Positions 5,764 to 15,409 of a stretch of 64,000 nt of DNA are shown here, one piece after another; within the stretch, counting starts at the first letter, position 1; every line of letters begins with the position of its first letter. Source of the DNA: Streptomyces sp. NBC_00239 (GTDB lineage Bacteria; Actinomycetota; Actinomycetes; Streptomycetales; Streptomycetaceae); the NCBI RefSeq assembly GCF_036194065.1, contig NZ_CP108095.1, positions 5,766,001 through 5,830,000 on the forward strand. Direction: 5' to 3'. The notes under the pieces are model-generated. The model was not told the DNA's origin. It did no database searches and saw only the letters and a list, made by a program, of their open reading frames with translations. The translations under genes and the position numbers were made by a program.

Positions 5764-7293
5764 TCAGCCCAGGTCGCCGGTGGCGGTGCGCTCGGCGAGC
5801 CGGACCAGGGTGCGCACGGCGGAGCCGGTGCCGCCCTTCGGGGTGTAGCCGTACGGCGCGCCCTCGTGGAAGGCCGGGCCGGCGATGTCGAGGTGCGCCC
5901 AGGTGATGCCCTCGCCCAGGAATTCCTGGAGGAAGATGCCGGCGACCAGGCCGCCGCCCATCCGCTCGCCCATGTTGGCGAGGTCGGCGGTGGGGGAGTC
6001 GAGGCCCTTGCGCAGGTCCGCGGGGAGCGGCATCGGCCAGGAGGCCTCGCCGACCTCCTCGGCGATCTCGTGGATCGACGTGCGGAAGGCGTCGTCGTTG
6101 GCCATGATGCCGAAGGTGCGGTTGCCCAGGGCCAGCACCATCGCGCCGGTCAGGGTCGCCACGTCGACGATCGCGTCCGGGTTCTCCTCGGAGGCCTTGG
6201 TCAGGGCGTCGCCCAGGACCAGGCGGCCCTCGGCGTCCGTGTTCAGGACCTCGACGGTCTTGCCGTTGTACATGCGCAGCACGTCGCCGGGGCGGGTGGC
6301 GGAGCCGGAGGGCATGTTCTCGGCGAGCGCCAGCCAGCCGGTCACGTTGACCTGGAGGCCGAGGCGGGCGGCGGCGACGACGGCGGCGAACACGGCGGCC
6401 GCGCCCGACATGTCGCACTTCATCGTCTCGTTGTGGCCGGCCGGCTTCAGGGAGATGCCGCCCGAGTCGTAGGTGATGCCCTTGCCGACGTAGGCGAGGT
6501 GCTTCTCCGCCTTCGGGTGGGTGTAGGCGATCTTGACGAGGCGGGGCTGGTTCTCCGAGCCCTTGCCGACGCCCATGATGCCGCCGTAGCCGCCCTTGAG
6601 CAGGGCCTTCTCGTCCAGGACCTGGACCTTGAGGCCGAGCTCCTTGCCGGTCGTGGAGGCGACGGCGGCGAAGGCCTCGGGGGTGAGGTCGTTCGGCGGG
6701 GTGTTGATCAGGTCACGGGCGATGTTGACCTCGCCGGCGACGATCTTGGCGCGCTCGACGGCGGCCTTGTGCTCCTTGTCGCGCGGCTTGGCGCCCAGCA
6801 GGGCGGCCTCGGCCAGCGGGAGGCGGGCGCCGTTGTCGGCCTTGCCCTTCTTGTCCATGCCCTGGTAGGCGGTGAAGGCGTACGCGCCGAGCAGCGCGCC
6901 CTCGGCGACGGCCGTGACGGCGGAGGCGTCCTCCAGCGGCAGGGCGAAGCCGGCCTTCTTGGCGCCGGTCAGGGCGCGGGCGGCGACGCCGGCGGCGCGG
7001 CGCAGCGCGTCCTCGTCGTAGGACTCGGCCTTCTCCGGGACGGCGCCGAGGCCGACCGCCAGCACGACCGGCACCTTGAGGCCGGACGGAGCCGGCAGCT
7101 TGGTGACCTCGCCGTCCGCGCCCGAGGCGCCCAGGGCGTCGAGGACGGCGGCGAGCTTGCCGTCGAACGCCTGGTCCACGGCCTCGGCGCCGGGGGCGAC
7201 GACGGGGCCCTTGGCGCCCTTCGCGACGCCGACGACGAGGGCGTCGGCGCGCAGCGTGGCCGCGCCGGCAGTGCTGAGAGTCAGAGCAGTCAC
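5764..7293 (-). CDS. pepA: Leucyl aminopeptidase (M17)
   Basis: Cytosolic two-metal aminopeptidase that removes N-terminal residues, important in peptide turnover, 509 residues. The N-terminal macro-like domain is followed by the M17 catalytic domain with the hallmark NTDAEGRLVLGDAL. Metal-binding segments are VGKGITYDSGGISLKP and KCDMSGAAA, and the C-terminal part has MERMGGGL-like glycines (ANMGERMGGGLVAGIFLQEF). Length and motif order match the family. It is a single-gene unit with a terminator downstream and a 342-bp gap upstream shared with the divergent deacetylase gene. Mycobacteria also have a leucine aminopeptidase gene (pepB) beside the E2 gene, so the neighbourhood is conserved. 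Confidence 0.93.
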   Translation of the reverse strand: MTALTLSTAGAATLRADALVVGVAKGAKGPVVAPGAEAVDQAFDGKLAAVLDALGASGADGEVTKLPAPSGLKVPVVLAVGLGAVPEKAESYDEDALRRAAGVAARALTGAKKAGFALPLEDASAVTAVAEGALLGAYAFTAYQGMDKKGKADNGARLPLAEAALLGAKPRDKEHKAAVERAKIVAGEVNIARDLINTPPNDLTPEAFAAVASTTGKELGLKVQVLDEKALLKGGYGGIMGVGKGSENQPRLVKIAYTHPKAEKHLAYVGKGITYDSGGISLKPAGHNETMKCDMSGAAAVFAAVVAAARLGLQVNVTGWLALAENMPSGSATRPGDVLRMYNGKTVEVLNTDAEGRLVLGDALTKASEENPDAIVDVATLTGAMVLALGNRTFGIMANDDAFRTSIHEIAEEVGEASWPMPLPADLRKGLDSPTADLANMGERMGGGLVAGIFLQEFLGEGITWAHLDIAGPAFHEGAPYGYTPKGGTGSAVRTLVRLAERTATGDLG

Positions 7294-7635
7294 GGTGGTG
7301 AGGTCTCTCTTCCGGTTGTCTGTGAAGGCCGTGGGGTGGCCGGCCGTACTCCCGCGATCGTATTCGGGCCCGGCGGCCGCCGGAAATGAGCCTACGCGCC
7401 CGCACTCATCCGTACGGCACTCGAAGGTTGGTCAGGTTGTTCGATCACCGGGCCGTGCGGTTCACCCATCTGTGGTTTCTGCTCCAGGTTTGCCGCCTAC
7501 ACAGGAGGCCGTGGGCAACACTCGAGCCACTCTCGCAAGGGGACGCGGGGTTCCTTTGCATGATTTCCACAGAGCCTCACCCTTTCGGCCTCCCCACGGC
7601 CGCCGGGTCGGGCTGCTGCGGGGGGAAAGGCCACC
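7294..7635. other. Divergent intergenic region, pepA / CE18 cluster
   Basis: This 342-bp gap between divergently transcribed genes must carry the pepA promoter and that of the exopolysaccharide cluster. The half nearer the cluster (about 7420-7600) is less G+C-rich than its surroundings, as regulatory DNA often is. I found no convincing -35/-10 pair, no clear inverted repeat and no gene. A purine run (GGGGGAAAGG, 7620-7629) just before ATG 7636 can serve as its ribosome binding site. Confidence 0.5.
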
Positions 7636-9669
7636 ATGGTCAACAGGAACCGGATGAACCGCGCTGCCGCCGCATGCGTTGCGGCAGCGCTCGTCTCGGT
7701 AGCAGTACCCGCGGTGTCGGCGCAGGCCGCGGAAGAGGCGCTCACGCCCCGGATCGACCTGAAGGTGCTGGTCGTCGACGACGGGGGCAGCGCCGTCGAG
7801 GCCGTCACCGCCGAACTGCGCGACACCGGGGTGCCGTACACCCGGATCGGCCTCGGGGAGGGCGGCCGGCCGGTGATCGACGCGGCGTTCCTCAGCGACA
7901 CGGTCGACGGCCGGCCGCGCGCCAAGTACCAGGGCGTGGTGCTGCCCAGCGAGGACCCGTTCGGCGCGGGCTCCGCCGAGATGGCCGCCCTGGCCGCGTA
8001 CGAGAGCGCGTTCGGCATCCGCCAGATCGACGCGTACACGTGGGCCCACCCGGGCGTCGGCCTGGAGTACACCGACAACGGCGGGTACGCGGGCACCCTC
8101 GACGGCACGCAGGCCGCCGTCACCGCCGCCGGGAAGGCCGGCCCGTTCGGCTACCTCGGCGGTCCGGTCACTTTCGAGGACAACTCCGCCCTGATTCCGG
8201 AGAGCTACGGGTTCATGGGCAGGCCGCGCCCCGGCTACACCAGCTACCTGGACGCGCCGGTCGGCTCCGGACGGGCCTCGCTGGTCGGCGAGTACGTCCA
8301 CGACGGGCGCACCGAACTGGTCGTCACCTTCGGCTACAACCAGTACCAGCGGCAGTACCGGCTGCTGGCCCGCGGCATGGTCGAGTGGCTCACCCAGGGC
8401 GTCCACCTCGGCCAGAGCCGCAACTACTTCGCCGTGCACGTCGACGACGTCTTCGCGCCCGACGCCCGCTGGAACCCGGACCTCGACTGCACGCCCGGCG
8501 ACTACGCCTGCGCCGGCGGCGAGGGCCAGGAGAGCACCATCCGGATGACCGCCGCCGACGCCCAGTACGCGGCCCAGTGGCAGCAGACCAAGGGCTTCAC
8601 GCTCGACATGGTCTACAACGCGGGCGCCGGGGAGGAGTGGAAGACCGAGAACGGCGGCGCCGACGCCCTCACCGCGCAGCTCGTCGCCGACCGGGCCAAG
8701 TACCGGTGGATCAACCACACCTTCACGCACCCCTTCCTCGGCTGCGTCCAGGACGTCACCACAGTGCCGTGGACCTGCACCGTGAACGCCCAGGGCGGCA
8801 CCCAGTGGATGGGCCGCTCCGAGATCTCCGCGCAGATCCGCGACAACCACAACTGGGCCGTCGGCAAGGGCATCTCCGTCGACCGCAGCGAACTCGTCAC
8901 CGGCGAGCACTCGGGCCTCAAGACCCTGCCGCAGCAGGCGCAGGACAACCCCAACCTGGCCGGCGCGCTCGCCGACAACGGGGTCAAGTGGATCGCGAGC
9001 GACAACTCGCGCGAGCCCCGGCAGCGGGCCGTGGGCAGCGCCCTGACCGTGCCCCGGCACCCGATGAACGTGTACTACAACACGGGCACCCGCGCCGAGA
9101 TGGCCGACGAGTACAACTGGATCTACAGCAGCAGCGAGGACGGCGGCAGCGGCATCTGCGAGTCCAACCCGGCCTCCACCTGCCTGCCCCAGCCGCTGGA
9201 CACCGCCACCGGCTACACCTCGTACATCGTGCCCCAGGAGGCCCGCACCGCGCTGCGGCACGTGCTCGCCAACGACCCGCGCCCGCACTACGTGCACCAG
9301 TCCAACCTGGCCGAGGACCGGATCCTGTACCCGGTGCTCGACGAGGTCATCGACACCTACCGCACCCTGTTCGCCGCCAACACCCCGCTGGTGAACCAGC
9401 GCCAGCGCGACCTCGGCACCGAACTCGGCCGCCGCGCCGCCTGGGACCAGGCCCTCGCCGCCGGCAAGGTCACCGCCTACCGGATCGGCACCACGGTCAC
9501 CGTCAAGGCGCCCGCCGGGGTCACCGCCCCGGTCACCGCCCCCGAGGGCACCCGCAAGCAGCTGTTCCTGGGCACCGCCGTCTACGGCAGCGCCTACGCC
9601 GGAGCCCGCTCGGCGTGGACCGAGCCCGAACTGCTCCAGTCGGCCGTGACCCTGAAGCTGCCCAGCTGA
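7636..9669 (+). CDS. Secreted polysaccharide deacetylase, CE18 (Agd3)-like
   Basis: A 677-residue exported protein. The signal peptide (MVNRNRMNRAAAACVAA, cleavage near SAQA-AEE) leads into a beta-rich N-terminal half. A CE4-type deacetylase core follows with the metal-binding motifs HVDDVF (H268, D270, D271) and NHTFTHPFLGC (H361, H365). The large size, domain layout and this motif pair fit family CE18, founded on Aspergillus Agd3, which deacetylates N-acetylgalactosamine in galactosaminogalactan. The product would be a cationic, adhesive polymer. It heads a five-gene block with PelF, a multi-spanning membrane protein, GH135 and GH114 proteins, which supports the same substrate class. ATG 7636 follows a purine-rich RBS; ATG 7654 is an alternative. 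CE18 membership is from memory of the family; a generic CE4-like deacetylase is the fallback. Confidence 0.78.
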   Translation: MVNRNRMNRAAAACVAAALVSVAVPAVSAQAAEEALTPRIDLKVLVVDDGGSAVEAVTAELRDTGVPYTRIGLGEGGRPVIDAAFLSDTVDGRPRAKYQGVVLPSEDPFGAGSAEMAALAAYESAFGIRQIDAYTWAHPGVGLEYTDNGGYAGTLDGTQAAVTAAGKAGPFGYLGGPVTFEDNSALIPESYGFMGRPRPGYTSYLDAPVGSGRASLVGEYVHDGRTELVVTFGYNQYQRQYRLLARGMVEWLTQGVHLGQSRNYFAVHVDDVFAPDARWNPDLDCTPGDYACAGGEGQESTIRMTAADAQYAAQWQQTKGFTLDMVYNAGAGEEWKTENGGADALTAQLVADRAKYRWINHTFTHPFLGCVQDVTTVPWTCTVNAQGGTQWMGRSEISAQIRDNHNWAVGKGISVDRSELVTGEHSGLKTLPQQAQDNPNLAGALADNGVKWIASDNSREPRQRAVGSALTVPRHPMNVYYNTGTRAEMADEYNWIYSSSEDGGSGICESNPASTCLPQPLDTATGYTSYIVPQEARTALRHVLANDPRPHYVHQSNLAEDRILYPVLDEVIDTYRTLFAANTPLVNQRQRDLGTELGRRAAWDQALAAGKVTAYRIGTTVTVKAPAGVTAPVTAPEGTRKQLFLGTAVYGSAYAGARSAWTEPELLQSAVTLKLPS

Positions 9670-9684
9670 CCCGGCCCCGCCGCC

Positions 9685-9714
9685 GCCCGGTCGGCCACCG
9701 CCGCCCGACCGGGC
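9685..9714 (+). terminator. Hairpin between the deacetylase gene and pelF
   Basis: Perfect 10-bp arms GCCCGGTCGG (9685-9694) and CCGACCGGGC (9705-9714) with a 10-nt loop, 16 bp past the deacetylase stop. It may terminate or attenuate transcription before pelF. The following 70 bp repeat CGTACG-centred words several times (9729-9774) and have no gene. Confidence 0.5.
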
Positions 9715-9869
9715 ACCACGTCCGACCCCGTACGCCCGGCCCGTACGTCTGACACGTACGTCCGACCCGTACGCAGCACCGCCACAACAGCACACTGCCG
9801 CACCATGCGCCGGCGCTCTTCCCGCTCAGACGGGCGCCGGCACCTTTCCGTCCTGGGGGGACACACCGC

Positions 9870-11387
9870 ATGAGTCATGGGCGTCACGTCACCATGCTCA
9901 CCGAAGGCACCTACCCGCACGTCCACGGGGGCGTCAGCACCTGGTGCGACCAACTGGTGCGCGGCATGCCGGAGGTCGACTTCAACGTCGTCGCCCTCAC
10001 CGGCACCGGTCGCGAGCCCGTCACCTGGGAACTCCCGCGCAACGTGTACCGGCACAGCGCCGTACCGCTCTGGGGCCCGCCGCCGCACCGCAGCCGCCGC
10101 GCACCCCTCCGGGGCCGCGCCCACCGCCGGTTCACCGAGACGTACGAGCGGTTCCTGCACTCCCTGCTCGATCCCGGCACCGACGGCTTCTCGGCGGCGC
10201 TGTACGAACTCGCCGAACTCGCCCGCGCCGGGCGGCTCTCGACGGCCATGCGCTCCGAGTCCGTCCTGCGCACCCTGATGTCCGTCTGGGTGCGGCCGGG
10301 GCTGGCCACCGCCGCCGCCCGCCCCACCATCCACGACGCGCTCACCGCCACCGACCTGCTGGAACACGCGCTGCGGCCGCTGTCCGTGCGCATCCCGCAG
10401 GACTGCGTCGCGCACGCCGTCAGCAGCGGCCTCGCCACCCTGCCCGCGCTCGCCGCCAAACGCCTCGACGGGGTGCCGTTCCTCCTCACCGAGCACGGCA
10501 TCTACCTGCGCGAGCGCTACCTCGGCTACCGCAGCGCCGCCCAGCGCTGGCCGGTCAAGGCGCTCATGCTCGGCTTCTACCGCGAGCTCAACTCCGAGGG
10601 CTACCGGCAGGCCGACCTCATCACCCCGTGCAACCAGTACAACCGCCGCTGGGAAGAGCGCGGCGGCGCGCCCGCCGACCGGATCCGCACCGTCTACAAC
10701 GGCGTGGACCCGCACGTCTTCCCCGAGGCCGGGGCCGAACCGGAAGTCCCCACCCTCAGCTGGTGCGGCCGGATCGACCCCATCAAGGACCTGGAGACCC
10801 TCGTCCGGGCGTACGCGCTGATGCGCGCCGAGCTGCCCGCCCTGCGGCTGCGGCTGTTCGGCCCGGTCCCGGCCGGCTGCGAGGACTACCGCACGCGCCT
10901 GGAGAAACTCGCCGCCGAACTCGGTGTGAGCGACGGAATCACGTACGAAGGAAGGATCAGCCAGGTCGCCAAGGCGTACGCGGCCGGCAGCATCGTGATG
11001 CTCTCCAGCATCAGCGAGGGCTTCCCCTTCAGCATCATCGAGGCCATGTCCTGCGGCCGCACGACCGTCTCCACGGACGTCGGCGGAGTCCGCGAGGCCG
11101 TCGGCGACACCGGCCTCGTCGTCCCGCCCCGCGAACCCGAACTGATGGCCCGCGCCACCCTCGCCCTGCTGCGCGACGACGAGCGAAGAGCCGAGCTCGG
11201 CCGGCTCTCCCGGCAGCGCGTGGTCGAGAAGTTCACCCTGCACCGCTCGGTCGACGGCTTCCGCCACATCTACCGCGAACTCGCCCGCGGCCCCGTGCCG
11301 GTGGACCCGCCGCGCGCCTCGCAGGACGCCTGGACCATGGCCGACCCCTGGTACCGGGAGCTCGCCGCCGACGGGAGCGCCTGGTGA
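9870..11387 (+). CDS. pelF: PelF-type GT4 glycosyltransferase
   Basis: Cytosolic retaining glycosyltransferase, 505 residues, predicted to polymerise a hexosamine-containing exopolysaccharide from UDP-sugars. The N-terminus has the PelF hallmark TEGTYPHVHGGVSTWCDQLV, then the family insert and LLTEHGIYLRER. The GT4 C-terminal Rossmann half shows WCGRIDPIKDLETLVRAYAL and the nucleotide-sugar E-x7-E motif SEGFPFSIIEAMSCG. In Pseudomonas PelF uses UDP-GalNAc/GlcNAc and works with the flippase-like PelG. Here the next gene overlaps it by 4 bp (GTGA) and encodes a protein with about 12 membrane segments. No PelD-like c-di-GMP receptor or PelE is present. The neighbouring GH114, GH135 and CE18 genes point to a galactosamine-type polymer. 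Confidence 0.85.
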   Translation: MSHGRHVTMLTEGTYPHVHGGVSTWCDQLVRGMPEVDFNVVALTGTGREPVTWELPRNVYRHSAVPLWGPPPHRSRRAPLRGRAHRRFTETYERFLHSLLDPGTDGFSAALYELAELARAGRLSTAMRSESVLRTLMSVWVRPGLATAAARPTIHDALTATDLLEHALRPLSVRIPQDCVAHAVSSGLATLPALAAKRLDGVPFLLTEHGIYLRERYLGYRSAAQRWPVKALMLGFYRELNSEGYRQADLITPCNQYNRRWEERGGAPADRIRTVYNGVDPHVFPEAGAEPEVPTLSWCGRIDPIKDLETLVRAYALMRAELPALRLRLFGPVPAGCEDYRTRLEKLAAELGVSDGITYEGRISQVAKAYAAGSIVMLSSISEGFPFSIIEAMSCGRTTVSTDVGGVREAVGDTGLVVPPREPELMARATLALLRDDERRAELGRLSRQRVVEKFTLHRSVDGFRHIYRELARGPVPVDPPRASQDAWTMADPWYRELAADGSAW

Positions 11388-12919
11388 GCGGCGGGCTGTG
11401 GCTGACGCCCGGCAGCCGCTCCGGCGACGACACCCTGGCGCTGATCCCGCGCCCGCGCCGCGGCGCCCCGGCGGCGGCCGCCGACCCGATGGAGGAGCTC
11501 GCCACCCGGCTGGAACGGTTCGTCGAGGCGGCCGTCCACCCCGACGAGATCGCCGCCATCCTGGAATCCGACGGGATGACCGACGAGCACATCCGCCTCA
11601 CCTACGGCCGCCACGACTCCTTCGCCCTCGCCGAGGCGCTGTACGCGCGGGTGCCGCGGGCCTTCCCCGAACCGGAGGGCGGCGGCGACCCCTGGAAGGT
11701 CTCGCTCGTCGCCTGCCTCCTGCGGGGAGTCGTCTTCGCGCTGCCCGGACTGGCGTACGTGCTGGGGGCGCCGCTGCTCGAAGGCCCCCCGGACCGCCTC
11801 GGGCTGCCCTCGGGCACCCTCACCCTGCTGGCGGGCGCGCTCATCGGCTGGGTCTGGGACCAGACCCTCTCCCACCGGGCGTACTCCTGGCTGGGCCTGG
11901 GCGACCGGGCCGCCGCCGGACGCACCCTGCTGGTCGGCGCCCCCGCCGGGGCGCTGCTCGGCGGCGCGGCCGCCCTCGCCGTGCCCGGCCCGGGCTTCTC
12001 GGTGGCCTTCGCCGCCGGCCAGGCCTGCTACGTCGGCGCGGCCACCGTCCTGCTGGTGCTCGGCCGCGAACGCCTGCTGCTGTGCGCGCTCGCCCCGATG
12101 GCCGTGGGCTCCCTCGTGGCCCTCGCCGTCGGCCTGCCCACACCGGTACGGGTGGCCCTGCTGGCCCTCTCGCTGCTGGCCGCCTGCACGCTGGCCGTCC
12201 GCGAACTCCCGGTCGCCGAAGGGGCCCGGGCCGCGGCCGCCCGGCTGCGCGACCGGCGAGCGGCCCGGGTGCCGGGCGGCGCGGTGCGCTGGCGGATGCT
12301 GCGGGGCGCGGAGGACGAGTTCGTGCCGCGCGGCCCCCGCTTCACCGACTCCGTGCCGTACGGGGTGTTCGGGCTGGGCACCGGCGTGCTCGTGCTGTAC
12401 GCGGCGCTGGGCGAGGTGCTGGCGGGCGGGCCCGCGGCGGCCGCCGCCGCCCCCTCCGCGGTCGCGCTCACCCTCAGCATGGGCCCGGCCGAATGGCTGC
12501 TGCACCGTTTCCGCAGCGGCAGCCTGGCCGGCCTGCGCTCCGCCCGCACCCCCGCCGGCTTCCGGCGGCAGATGGCGCTGACCCTCGCCCGCTGCCTGGC
12601 GGTCTACCTGTGCGTGCTGCTGGCCCTCGGCGTCACCGGCACCCTGCTGTGGCCCGGCGCGCCCGGCCTCGGCGGGGTCCGGCTGGCCACGCTGCTGCTG
12701 CTCGGCGCGGTCATGTGGACCGGGCTGCTGCTCCAGTCGTTCGGCGCGGTCCGGCTCGCGGCCGGGGTGTGCGCGCTGGCCGCGGCCGCGCAGAGCGCCG
12801 CGTTCCTGACCGGCGCCGGACACCCGAGGCTGGTGCAGGCGGCGGTGGCGGCCGTGGCCGCCGCGGTGCTGTCCGCCCTGGTCTGCGTACTCCTCGGCCG
12901 CGCGACGGCCCACCGCTGA
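11384..12919 (+). CDS. Multi-spanning membrane protein, candidate polysaccharide exporter
   Basis: A 511-residue protein starting at GTG 11384, which overlaps the pelF stop (GTGA), so it is translationally coupled. The first 100 residues are soluble, with a helical segment around LERFVEAAVHPDEIAAILE and TYGRHDSFALAEALY. About 12 hydrophobic helices follow in two blocks of six, separated by a charged loop (around residues 275-325). Twelve helices in 6+6 is the layout of MOP-superfamily flippases such as PelG, but I do not recognise the sequence as PelG and no motif proves transport. By position it is the likely membrane partner of PelF, carrying the nascent polymer across the membrane. This is inference from topology and operon context. 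Confidence 0.7.
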   Translation: MSGGLWLTPGSRSGDDTLALIPRPRRGAPAAAADPMEELATRLERFVEAAVHPDEIAAILESDGMTDEHIRLTYGRHDSFALAEALYARVPRAFPEPEGGGDPWKVSLVACLLRGVVFALPGLAYVLGAPLLEGPPDRLGLPSGTLTLLAGALIGWVWDQTLSHRAYSWLGLGDRAAAGRTLLVGAPAGALLGGAAALAVPGPGFSVAFAAGQACYVGAATVLLVLGRERLLLCALAPMAVGSLVALAVGLPTPVRVALLALSLLAACTLAVRELPVAEGARAAAARLRDRRAARVPGGAVRWRMLRGAEDEFVPRGPRFTDSVPYGVFGLGTGVLVLYAALGEVLAGGPAAAAAAPSAVALTLSMGPAEWLLHRFRSGSLAGLRSARTPAGFRRQMALTLARCLAVYLCVLLALGVTGTLLWPGAPGLGGVRLATLLLLGAVMWTGLLLQSFGAVRLAAGVCALAAAAQSAAFLTGAGHPRLVQAAVAAVAAAVLSALVCVLLGRATAHR

Positions 12920-12967
12920 GCGACATCGATGCGCACACCGAAACGGACCCGGAGACAGAAGGACGCC

Positions 12968-13615
12968 ATGCTGCTGGTGCCGCTCTACGAGCACCCCGCC
13001 GACCGGCCCGAGGCCTGGGAGGCCGTCATCCGGTCCGCCGACCGGCTGTACGCGGTCGTGCTCAACCCCGACAGCGGCCCCGGCGCCGCGCCCGACGAGC
13101 GGTTCGCCGCGGTCTCGGAGCGGCTGCGGGCCGCCGACGTGCCGGTGCTCGGCTACACCGACACCGACTACGGGCGCCGCCCGCACCCCGACGTCGTCCA
13201 AGACCTGCTGCGCTACCGGGACTGGTACGGCGCCGACGGCGCCTTCCTCGACCAGGCGGCCGCCGAACGGGAGCTGCTGCCGCACTACCGGCGGCTGTCG
13301 GTGGCCGCCCGCGCCGCGGGTGCCCGTACGGTCGTGCTCAACCACGGTGCCCACCCGCACCCCGGATTCGCCGAACTCGCCGACCTGCTGGTCACGTTCG
13401 AAGGCCCCTGGGACGCCTACCAGGAGGCGGTGGTGCCCGAGTGGACGGCGGGCCACCCCGCCGAGCGGTTCTGCCACCTCGTGTACGCGGTCCCGGCGGG
13501 CGCCCCCACCGCCGAACTCGCCCTGGCCCGCCGGGCCGCCGTGCACTGCGCGGTGCCCGGCGCGGGCACCCACCCGTGGGGCACCCTGCCGCACACCCTG
13601 GAGCCCGCCGGATGA
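12968..13615 (+). CDS. Spherulin-4 family glycoside hydrolase (GH135, Sph3-like)
   Basis: A 215-residue single-domain protein with the spherulin-4 pattern in order: LLVPLYEHP at the N-terminus, VVLNPDSGPG, VLGYTDTDYG, the acidic YGADGAFLDQAA, VVLNHGAHPHP and LVTFEGPW. Aspergillus Sph3 (GH135) cleaves galactosaminogalactan and is needed to make it. I chose ATG 12968 because GAAGGA lies 4 nt upstream and it gives the family N-terminus; an in-frame ATG at 12929 adds 13 basic residues. No signal peptide or membrane helix is visible with either start, so unlike its fungal relative it appears cytosolic. Its stop overlaps the next gene (ATGA). Confidence 0.82.
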   Translation: MLLVPLYEHPADRPEAWEAVIRSADRLYAVVLNPDSGPGAAPDERFAAVSERLRAADVPVLGYTDTDYGRRPHPDVVQDLLRYRDWYGADGAFLDQAAAERELLPHYRRLSVAARAAGARTVVLNHGAHPHPGFAELADLLVTFEGPWDAYQEAVVPEWTAGHPAERFCHLVYAVPAGAPTAELALARRAAVHCAVPGAGTHPWGTLPHTLEPAG

Positions 13616-14472
13616 GCCGGCGGGCCGCGCGGCGGCTGCCCGTCCTCCTGCCGGTCCTGCTGGCCCTGTTGCTCGCGGCCTGCACCGCGCCGCCGCCGGA
13701 CCGGCAGCAGGGCCGGCAGCAGGATCCGAAGCAGGGCCGGGACGGGGACGGGGGCCGGGAGCGGCCGGCCGGCGGGCACTGGCAGCCGCGCCCGGGACTG
13801 GCCTGGCAGTGGCAGTTGAGCGGGCGCCTCGACCGCTCGGTGGACGTGCCCGTCTACGACGTCGACGGGTTCACGACCGGCGCCGCCGACGTGGCCGCCC
13901 TGCACCGGGACGGCCGCCGGGTCATCTGTTACCTGTCCACCGGCGCCTGGGAGGACTTCCGGCCGGACGCCGGGGACTTCCCGCGGGCGGTCGTCGGCCG
14001 CCCCAACGGCTGGGAGGGCGAACGCTGGCTCGACATCCGCCGGATCCGCGTGCTGGAGCCGCTGATGGCCCGCCGCCTGGACATGTGCCGGGCGAAGGGC
14101 TTCGACGCGGTCGAGCCGGACAACATGGACGGCTACCGCAACCGCACCGGTTTCCCGCTGACCGCCGCCGACCAGCTCCGCTACAACCGGCTGGTCGCCC
14201 GCCTCGCGCACGAGCGCGGCCTGGCCGTCGGCCTGAAGAACGACCTGGACCAGATCCCGCAGTTGGTGGGCGACTTCGACTTCGCGGTCAACGAGCAGTG
14301 CGCCGAGTACGCCGAGTGCGAGCGGCTGACGCCCTTCGTCCGCGCGGGCAAGGCCGTCTTCCACGCCGAGTACGAGCTGCCCGTGGCCCGCTTCTGCGCG
14401 CAGAGCCGGCGCCTGGGCCTGAGTTCCCTGCTGAAGGAGTACGAACTGGGCCCCTGGCGCCGCACCTGCTGA
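13612..14472 (+). CDS. GH114 endo-alpha-1,4-polygalactosaminidase-like lipoprotein (Ega3-like)
   Basis: A 286-residue exported glycosidase. The N-terminus is a lipoprotein signal peptide with lipobox LLAAC, then a Gln/Gly/Asp-rich linker and one GH114 TIM-barrel domain starting near WQWQLSG. Family motifs are VPVYDVDGF, VICYLSTGAWEDFR, the acidic pair region FDAVEPDNMDGY (D165, E168, D170, D173) and FAVNEQC (E228). GH114 enzymes cut alpha-1,4-linked galactosamine; fungal Ega3 is the characterised example. It is coupled to the GH135 gene by ATGA overlap and closes the exopolysaccharide block. Anchored outside the membrane, it could trim or release the deacetylated polymer. Assignment to GH114 is strong; the exact substrate is inferred. 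Confidence 0.88.
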   Translation: MSRRAARRLPVLLPVLLALLLAACTAPPPDRQQGRQQDPKQGRDGDGGRERPAGGHWQPRPGLAWQWQLSGRLDRSVDVPVYDVDGFTTGAADVAALHRDGRRVICYLSTGAWEDFRPDAGDFPRAVVGRPNGWEGERWLDIRRIRVLEPLMARRLDMCRAKGFDAVEPDNMDGYRNRTGFPLTAADQLRYNRLVARLAHERGLAVGLKNDLDQIPQLVGDFDFAVNEQCAEYAECERLTPFVRAGKAVFHAEYELPVARFCAQSRRLGLSSLLKEYELGPWRRTC

Positions 14473-14523
14473 CGCACGCCCCGCCGGCCGTCGGCGCTCG
14501 GCGCGTCGGCGGTCAATCGTCGC

Positions 14524-14579
14524 CGTCAGCCGTCAGCCGTCAGCCGTCAGCCGTCAGCCGTCAGCCGTCAGCCGTAAGC
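14524..14579. repeat. Heptanucleotide tandem repeat (CGTCAGC)7 plus one variant
   Basis: Seven perfect copies of CGTCAGC (14524-14572) followed by CGTAAGC (14573-14579), lying in the 121-bp gap between the convergent GH114 and cobS genes. A further CGGTCAGCC sits next to the cobS stop codon. Copy number of such an array is likely to vary between strains. Confidence 0.95.
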
Positions 14580-14593
14580 CGTCGCGTCGGCGG

Positions 14594-15409
14594 TCAGCCG
14601 AAGGTCAGCACCACCAGGGCGGCCGTCGCGGAGCACTCGGCGGTGGCGCCGAACACGTCCCCGGTCACCCCGCCGAACCGGCCCACGCACCGCCGCAGCA
14701 CGAACTCGGCCATCGCCAGCCCCGCGAGCACGGCGGCCCCGCTCTGCGCGGCCGCCGGGATCCCGAACGGCAGCGCCGCCGCCGCGCAGCCGGCCGTCAC
14801 CGCCACGGCCGCCGCCAGCGCGGCCCGTACCGGCACCGCACCCGCCACCGTCGCGCCCAGACCCTCGGGCCGGGCCGGCGGGACGCCCGCCCGCGAGGCC
14901 AGGGTGAGGGCGAGCCGCGCGGTCACCCCCGCGACGACGGCCGCGAGCGCGCCGTGCGCCCAGCCCTCCCCGTACAGCTCGGTGAGTGCCGCGGTCTGCA
15001 GGCCCAGGACCAGCAGCAGGGCGATGACGCCGAACGGCCCGATGTCGGACTGCTTCATGATGCGCAGCGCGTCCTCGGCGGGCTTGGCGCTGCCGAGGCC
15101 GTCCGCGGTGTCGGCGAGCCCGTCCAGGTGCAGCCCCCGCGTCAGCAGGGCGGGTACCGCCGTGGTGGCCACCGCGGCGAGCAGCGGACCGGACCCGAGC
15201 AGCAGCAGGGCGCAGCCCAGCGCGGCCGAGCCCAGGCCGACGACCAGCCCGGCCACCGGGGCGCAGGCCATGCCGGTGCGGGCGGCGGGCCGGTCCCAGC
15301 GGGTGATCCGGGCGGGCAGCACGGTCAGGGTGCCGAAGGCGAAGCGGAGGCCGTCGACGAGGTGCGCCCGCTCGGCGGGCGGGGGCGTGGGTGGAGGCGT
15401 TTCGGTCAT
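14594..15409 (-). CDS. cobS: Adenosylcobinamide-GDP ribazoletransferase (cobalamin synthase)
   Basis: Integral membrane enzyme that joins adenosylcobinamide-GDP and alpha-ribazole in the last stage of cobalamin assembly, 271 residues from ATG 15409. Recognised from LRFAFGTLTVLPAR near the N-terminus, the acidic catalytic motif RGLHLDGLADTADGLG, KQSDIGPFGV and the C-terminal GGVTGDVFGATAE. Five to seven hydrophobic segments follow. A GTG at 15436 would add nine residues; no good ribosome binding site decides between them. cobU and cobT are 4-6 kb away on the other strand, so the nucleotide-loop pathway is split in this chromosome. No cobalamin riboswitch was recognised upstream. Confidence 0.92.
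   Translation of the reverse strand: MTETPPPTPPPAERAHLVDGLRFAFGTLTVLPARITRWDRPAARTGMACAPVAGLVVGLGSAALGCALLLLGSGPLLAAVATTAVPALLTRGLHLDGLADTADGLGSAKPAEDALRIMKQSDIGPFGVIALLLVLGLQTAALTELYGEGWAHGALAAVVAGVTARLALTLASRAGVPPARPEGLGATVAGAVPVRAALAAAVAVTAGCAAAALPFGIPAAAQSGAAVLAGLAMAEFVLRRCVGRFGGVTGDVFGATAECSATAALVVLTFG

Follow-up and report, generated by a model that had tools for sequence, protein, structure and literature searches.

A conserved five-gene block in Streptomyces as a probable locus for a partly deacetylated galactosamine polymer

RESULTS

Closest described systems and the five-gene block

Homologs of the deacetylase Agd3 have been described in bacteria by Bamford et al. 2020; in 30 of the 35 species of their tree, agd3 lies within or close to an operon for carbohydrate enzymes (PMC7229062). 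The same paper mentions an endo-galactosaminidase from S. griseus (PMC7229062). These operons all encode a cytoplasmic glycosyltransferase and a multi-spanning membrane protein, GH114 is a consistent member, and spherulin-4 is found in some Actinobacteria (PMC7229062). Here, a 64,000-nucleotide stretch of Streptomyces sp. NBC_00239 (NZ_CP108095.1, positions 5,766,001 to 5,830,000; referred to as the window, 72% G+C, from a 9.3 Mb host genome) was analyzed for a block of five genes with this composition. The block probably makes, exports, and partly deacetylates an alpha-1,4-linked polymer of N-acetylgalactosamine (GalNAc) and galactosamine (GalN). Analysis of GC frame and open reading frames (ORFs) placed all five genes on the + strand within 7636–14472, in the following order:

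7636–9669, + strand: secreted CE18 (Agd3-type) polysaccharide deacetylase, 677 amino acids, predicted from a profile match, motifs, and a hydrophobic N-terminus
9870–11387, + strand: PelF-type GT4 glycosyltransferase, predicted cytoplasmic, 505 amino acids (DUF3492, NCBIfam PelF)
11384–12919, + strand: membrane exporter of an unnamed family, predicted MOP-superfamily fold, 511 amino acids, GTG start
12968–13615, + strand: leaderless spherulin-4 (GH135-type) glycosidase, predicted cytoplasmic, 215 amino acids (PF12138)
13612–14472, + strand: GH114 endo-alpha-1,4-galactosaminidase-type lipoprotein, 286 amino acids (PF03537)

An earlier note on this DNA had reported the five genes on one strand with two overlaps, and both overlaps are real. 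Each is 4 bp long, one joining the GT4 and membrane protein genes (11384–11387) and the other the spherulin-4 and GH114 genes (13612–13615).

The block shares its composition with the actinobacterial agd3 operons (Agd3 homolog, cytoplasmic glycosyltransferase, multi-spanning membrane protein, GH114, and, in some operons, spherulin-4) and is very probably a locus of the same kind. The published section text names neither the membrane protein family nor the location of spherulin-4 (PMC7229062). The earlier note knew of no experimentally described actinobacterial version; no experimental study was found among open-licence papers, the literature covered throughout, but a bioinformatic description does exist (PMC7229062). 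What is new here is the fold of the exporter and its separation from PelG, a predicted location of spherulin-4 in the cytoplasm, the fixed chromosomal position, a second kind of cluster (type II, described below) that is also plasmid-borne, and a conserved upstream element.

Three other systems are also close. The fungal galactosaminogalactan (GAG) cluster (uge3, gtb3, sph3, agd3, ega3) has CE18, GH135, GH114, and a glycosyltransferase in common with the block. The fungal enzyme set claimed for the block is present as to these families and incomplete as to the epimerase, which is absent from the block (type II clusters have epimerase-like genes). The GH135 protein of the window is leaderless, and glycosyltransferase and exporter are two proteins, whereas the literature describes Gtb3 as a single transmembrane glycosyltransferase (PMC4817252). 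The Gram-positive pelDEADAFG system (PMC7112168) also combines a PelF-type GT4, a MOP-type exporter, an extracellular deacetylase, and a separate glycosidase, but the window genome has no PelG that could be found and the five proteins have no match to PelD or PelE, the search for PelE being confined to those five. A PelD_GGDEF search of the host genome gave nothing, and control genomes likewise gave no match. The deacetylase of the window is CE18-type, whereas Bacillus PelADA is placed outside known CE families (PMC13254593). Of the "Pel-like layout" in the earlier note, what stands is PelF together with an exporter of PelG's superfamily. The Pseudomonas Pel operon likewise encodes both deacetylation and hydrolysis of an alpha-1,4-GalNAc polymer; PelA, however, is CE21/GH166 (PMC12022489), and the window block uses other CE and GH families and has no outer-membrane parts.

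Conservation of the block

A scan of named species genomes, anchored on the exporter, identified 313 loci, and the best 80 of the 313 were surveyed (78 titled Streptomyces and two titled Actinobacteria bacterium). Gene order was the same in all 80 surveyed loci, and all five genes were present in 64. Streptomyces lavendulae CCM 3239 (L033) is one of the strains with the block. Given the fixed order and the frequency of the full set, the five-gene arrangement is not a product of chance. The remaining 16 loci are incomplete: six are cut by contig ends, nine are without GH114, and one is without spherulin-4. The earlier note had expected the genes to stay together, and none of the contrary outcomes that it named (a deacetylase outside CE18, glycosidases outside GH135 and GH114, genes dispersed in other genomes) was found.

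The block is patchy within the genus, yet it stays together. In an unanchored sample, CE18 was found in 15 of 246 genomes of the class and in 10 of 22 listed genomes from the same genus. Both CE18 and spherulin-4 were searched for in 21 same-genus genomes. Nine of these have CE18, in 13 copies altogether, and spherulin-4 is encoded within ~7 kb of 12 of the copies (tables compared by eye). Of the 12 genomes negative for CE18, four also have spherulin-4 matches, none of which exceeds 79 bits.

Deacetylase and lipoprotein glycosidase

The protein encoded at 7636–9669 is assigned to CE18 (the Agd3 family) by sequence over its carbohydrate-binding module (CBM), CE, and C-terminal domains. When 11 bacterial relatives were combined into a profile, it matched the Agd3 crystal sequence 6nwz with an E value of 4.1e-40, over stretches 26–270 and 376–679 of 684. 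This wide profile was built by adding relatives from other actinobacteria and Deinococcus, and it alone found Agd3; PDB searches with the single sequence or with a narrow Streptomyces profile gave no match. Among 20 aligned CE18 members, all match Agd3_CE at an E value of 0.1 or less, and 11 match CBM87. The Pfam Agd3_CE model undercounts this group, because its matches over 296 genomes of the phylum fall in four and miss the window genome itself. Residues D270, D271, H361, H365, R474, and H554 are invariant (76/76 loci), and the numbers previously given for the first four are correct. They align with 6nwz chain positions 255/256, 388/392, 491, and 546, a constant 122 below the published numbers of Agd3 catalytic motifs CM1–4, D377/D378, H510/H514, R613, and H668 (PMC7229062). 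A hydrophobic N-terminus is present in 76/76 loci by a lenient window test.

The GH114 lipoprotein of the earlier note was upheld in family searches, with 287 bits against PF03537 and an E value of 9.8e-55 against Ega3 (6oj1). D170 and E228 are invariant in 69/69 loci and lie 58 residues apart, the same spacing as the catalytic Asp and Glu of Ega3, D189/E247 (PMC12054363). The window translation contains an LLAAC lipobox, and a lipobox-like motif occurs in 59 of 69 loci. The host genome has a second GH114 gene outside the block (L124, G000:C1:7559000-7569000).

Synthase and exporter

The assignment of the second protein to PelF-type GT4 is sound, with 199 bits against DUF3492 and 168 bits against the NCBIfam PelF equivalog model (cut-off 100). 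Two glutamates, E383 and E391, are invariant in 78/78 loci; we take them to be the GT4 E-x7-E pair.

The exporter had been described as a 12-helix membrane protein, and its AlphaFold2 model has 12 long helices. A hydropathy scan alone gives 11 segments, the 12th, near 355–372, being assigned by eye. An N-terminal helical cytoplasmic domain spans residues ~35–89. The structural matches of the model are 12-helix MOP exporters, including MATE, WzxE, and MurJ, and by this predicted structure the exporter is placed in the MOP superfamily (MATE/Wzx/MurJ fold). The prediction used 16 alignment rows, among them the membrane protein of L116, a locus from another family. No Pfam or NCBIfam model matched the exporter protein, and six matches from a PDB sequence search (E values 0.56–1.3) were regarded as chance.

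PelG has itself been assigned to the MOP superfamily (PMC13254593). PelG as an identity for the exporter was ruled out by Pfam, genome search, and profile–profile comparison, the fold being common only at the level of the superfamily. The PelG model PF16933 matched neither the window exporter nor the proteins of five other loci (L115, L116, L117, L120, and L131). Comparison of 21 exporter relatives with six PelG proteins in hhalign gave a probability of 0.1%; the L116 membrane protein was omitted from the exporter profile used there.

A leaderless spherulin-4 protein

The fourth protein matches Pfam Spherulin4 (PF12138) with 114 bits against a cut-off of 30.2, in agreement with its earlier reading as GH135 spherulin-4. 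The match covers profile positions 2–197 of 239, leaving the last 42 unmatched. A profile of 22 spherulin-4 sequences matched the extracellular enzyme Sph3 (5c5g) with an E value of 1e-22. D95 and E145 are invariant in 77/77 loci and align with D116 and E172 of the 5c5g chain, which are 56 apart. That spacing fits Asp166/Glu222, and we take Asp166 to be the catalytic Asp of Sph3. The catalytic pair is printed as Asp196/Glu222 in one paper (PMC12054363).

No candidate start gives the clustered spherulin-4 protein a hydrophobic leader in any of 77 loci, by a test that requires a 12-residue hydrophobic window of 1.8 or more. In the window, an in-frame ATG at 12929 lies upstream of the start used here, and this alternative start likewise gives no leader. 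In 40 of the 77 loci, a start is possible that would overlap the end of the exporter gene by 4 bp. Leaderless spherulin-4 is also encoded behind a membrane protein in L116, L117, and L119, which come from other families, and with the gene set in L118, which was read by plain ORFs after the gene caller was unsuccessful. The L116 membrane protein has no match to the exporter profile. A hydrophobic N-terminus is present on the relatives L083–L086, L122, and L123 and on the second copy of L117; L123 (G000:C1:7236000-7244000) is a second, leader-bearing spherulin-4 gene of the host genome, outside the block. From the lack of a leader in 77/77 loci, while the host-genome paralog has one, we infer that the clustered enzyme is cytoplasmic. 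On present evidence, the GH135-type protein of the block is not a secreted enzyme, and its invariant residues predict that it is catalytically intact. No statement about its cytoplasmic location was found in the literature.

Two type II loci, L114 and L132, have an in-frame stretch 5' of spherulin-4 that holds a hydrophobic window (2.11 and 1.87, respectively). The annotated start in L132 falls after this window, and the start in L114 may lie on either side of it. A tree of spherulin-4 proteins has long branches (L116, L118, L117_1, and L123) and serves only to picture the presence or absence of a leader. One apparent fusion of membrane protein and spherulin-4 (P0174) appears to carry a frameshift and was left out of the evidence.

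Type II clusters and related loci

Several same-genus genomes have a second, diverged set of genes, here called type II, that encodes CE18, PelF, exporter, a short-chain dehydrogenase/reductase (SDR), a nucleotidyltransferase, another SDR, spherulin-4, and GH114. The gene caller did not recover all of these parts in each genome, and L115 is without spherulin-4 or GH114. The full set is found on a linear plasmid of Streptomyces californicus (L132, NZ_CP070243.1), where the CE18 protein is annotated as hypothetical, is 58% identical to that of the window, and is by itself unmatched in Pfam. Among solved structures, those closest to the SDR of L113 include both 4,6-dehydratases and UDP-glucose 4-epimerases, so it may catalyze either type of reaction. 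In the host genome, four galE-family proteins exceed the cut-off, all outside the block; no dedicated UDP-glucose 4-epimerase was identified among the five window proteins or the flanking genes scanned.

Related loci were also found beyond the genus. A Deinococcus grandis plasmid (L131, AP021850.1) encodes PelF, exporter, an annotated UDP-glucose 4-epimerase, a pyrophosphorylase, CE18, and a weak GH114 match (24.7 bits, below the cut-off), with no spherulin-4 among the proteins scanned. Locus L120 (G297:C1:2829000-2848000), which comes from another family, combines CE18 with GT4 and exporter and has no spherulin-4 match. A gene resembling UDP-glucose dehydrogenase is also present in the L120 block and hints at a product that contains uronic acid. 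In L122 (G111:C1:1803001-1823000), from another class of the same phylum, GT4 (183 bits with the PelF profile), a true PelG, and CE18 are encoded in a row; spherulin-4 is on the opposite strand and has an N-terminal membrane segment.

Proposed function and alternatives

The steps by which the block probably yields its polymer can be proposed gene by gene. PelF would polymerize UDP-GalNAc in the cytoplasm, as its family suggests, and the MOP-fold protein would move the chain across the membrane, as suggested by its fold and the coupling of the two genes. The secreted CE18 enzyme, in which the catalytic residues are seen, would then strip some of the N-acetyl groups to give a cationic polymer, and the GH114 lipoprotein may trim deacetylated stretches at the cell surface. 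For the leaderless spherulin-4 enzyme, we propose acetylated chains as the substrate and the cytoplasmic side of the membrane as the site of action; there it could end chains, shorten them, or clear those that have stalled. UDP-GalNAc would be supplied by a general epimerase of the host genome and, in type II, by cluster-borne genes. The secreted, partly deacetylated galactosamine polymer of the earlier note is still the best inference from enzyme families and co-occurrence, with the galactosamine content and linkage predicted from those families.

Several points weigh against this reading. The CE18 protein alone scores 21.5 bits against Pfam Agd3_CE, below the cut-off of 27.6. Neither GH114 nor spherulin-4 is strictly required, because untruncated loci lack one (nine loci) or the other (one locus). 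In L121 (G101:C7:78001-98000), from another class, a CE18 protein over the Pfam cut-off occurs with no GT4, exporter, spherulin-4, or GH114 match in 20 kb. A PF16933 search found no PelG in the host genome and scores of 459 and 471 bits in two genomes of the phylum. UDP-GalNAc is not necessarily the substrate of PelF-type GT4 proteins, the predicted MOP fold also suits flipping of lipid-linked oligosaccharides, and a cytoplasmic endo-glycosidase beside the synthase would have to be controlled if the product is not to be destroyed. Spherulin-4 genes are common apart from this block (72 of 101 genomes of the family), and no chemistry or genetics on this locus was found in the literature.

A broader proposal is made tentatively. 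The loci in Actinomycetota and Deinococcus may represent a PelG-less branch of galactosamine-polymer machines, in which a PelF synthase is coupled to an unnamed family of MOP-fold exporters and to which most of the actinobacterial sets read would add an intact, cytoplasmic-side GH135-type enzyme that controls the length of chains or removes those that have stalled. We know of no other exopolysaccharide synthase system with a dedicated cytoplasmic-side endo-glycosidase.

An alternative to export of a free polymer is that the block makes a lipid-linked cell-wall or capsular galactosamine glycan, in which PelF would extend a chain linked to undecaprenyl and flipping in the manner of Wzx would fall to the MOP protein. 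The structural matches of the exporter do include WzxE and MurJ, flippases of lipid-linked sugars, beside MATE. Galactosamine also occurs in Streptomyces walls, in a polysaccharide present at low levels (cited in PMC7229062). We consider this alternative unlikely: the five proteins include no initiating phosphoglycosyltransferase, polymerase, or ligase family, and one glycosyltransferase is present where several would be expected. Nor does the fold favor flipping, since PelG itself belongs to the MOP superfamily (PMC13254593).

It is more improbable still that secreted CE18 and GH114 mainly attack the galactosamine polymers of fungal or bacterial competitors while GT4 and exporter serve to make an unrelated product. 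Enzymes that degrade GAG outside the cell could be of use to a soil bacterium, the host genome has a further leader-bearing spherulin-4 and a further GH114 outside the block, and L121 indicates that CE18 can occur without a synthase. The hydrolases of the window, however, sit in a tight one-strand block with genes for synthesis and export, joined by 4-bp overlaps. Across 24 short loci, 17 have a GT4 match (L090 and L105 are the same place). Among the seven others, longer stretches show GT4 in L117, L118, and L122 and none in L121; L119 is a 5-kb contig, and L098 and L089 are known from a short stretch only. The least credible alternative, that spherulin-4 is exported by a route without a recognizable leader and works like secreted Sph3, fits the description of fungal Sph3 within modification of the extruded polymer (PMC4817252) but is opposed by the missing leader in 77/77 loci and in L116, L117, L118, and L119 from other families, while relatives outside such blocks and the L122 copy bear a hydrophobic N-terminus.

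If the block does make and export a partly deacetylated galactosamine polymer, many Streptomyces would produce a cationic polymer of the type that gives fungal and Pseudomonas biofilms their cohesion, with a bearing on hyphal clumping, adhesion, and fungal–bacterial contact in soil. The published idea that the fungal GAG cluster was acquired from bacteria would gain a concrete bacterial system for comparison, and the leaderless glycosidase makes chain-length setting in synthase-dependent polymers directly testable.

Flanking genes and upstream element

Three further features lie next to the block:

5764–7293, - strand: leucyl aminopeptidase (Peptidase_M17), left flank
7555–7570, + strand: conserved sequence TTTGCATGATTTCCAC, upstream of CE18 at 65 bp from its start codon
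14594–15436, - strand: cobS-like gene, right flank

The leucyl aminopeptidase gene adjoins the block in 76 of the 80 surveyed loci, and the other four are cut. The upstream element was found with two or fewer mismatches, within 600 bp, in 66 of 76 loci. It has one exact match in the host genome, at 7555–7570 of the window, and two more sites at two mismatches. Comparison of the region 7250–9900 with Rfam gave no RNA family match. The element is possibly a regulatory site. The interval from the GH114 stop codon to the cobS-like gene holds a tandem repeat with a 7-bp unit (CGTCAGC), present in 12.3 copies at 14518–14600.

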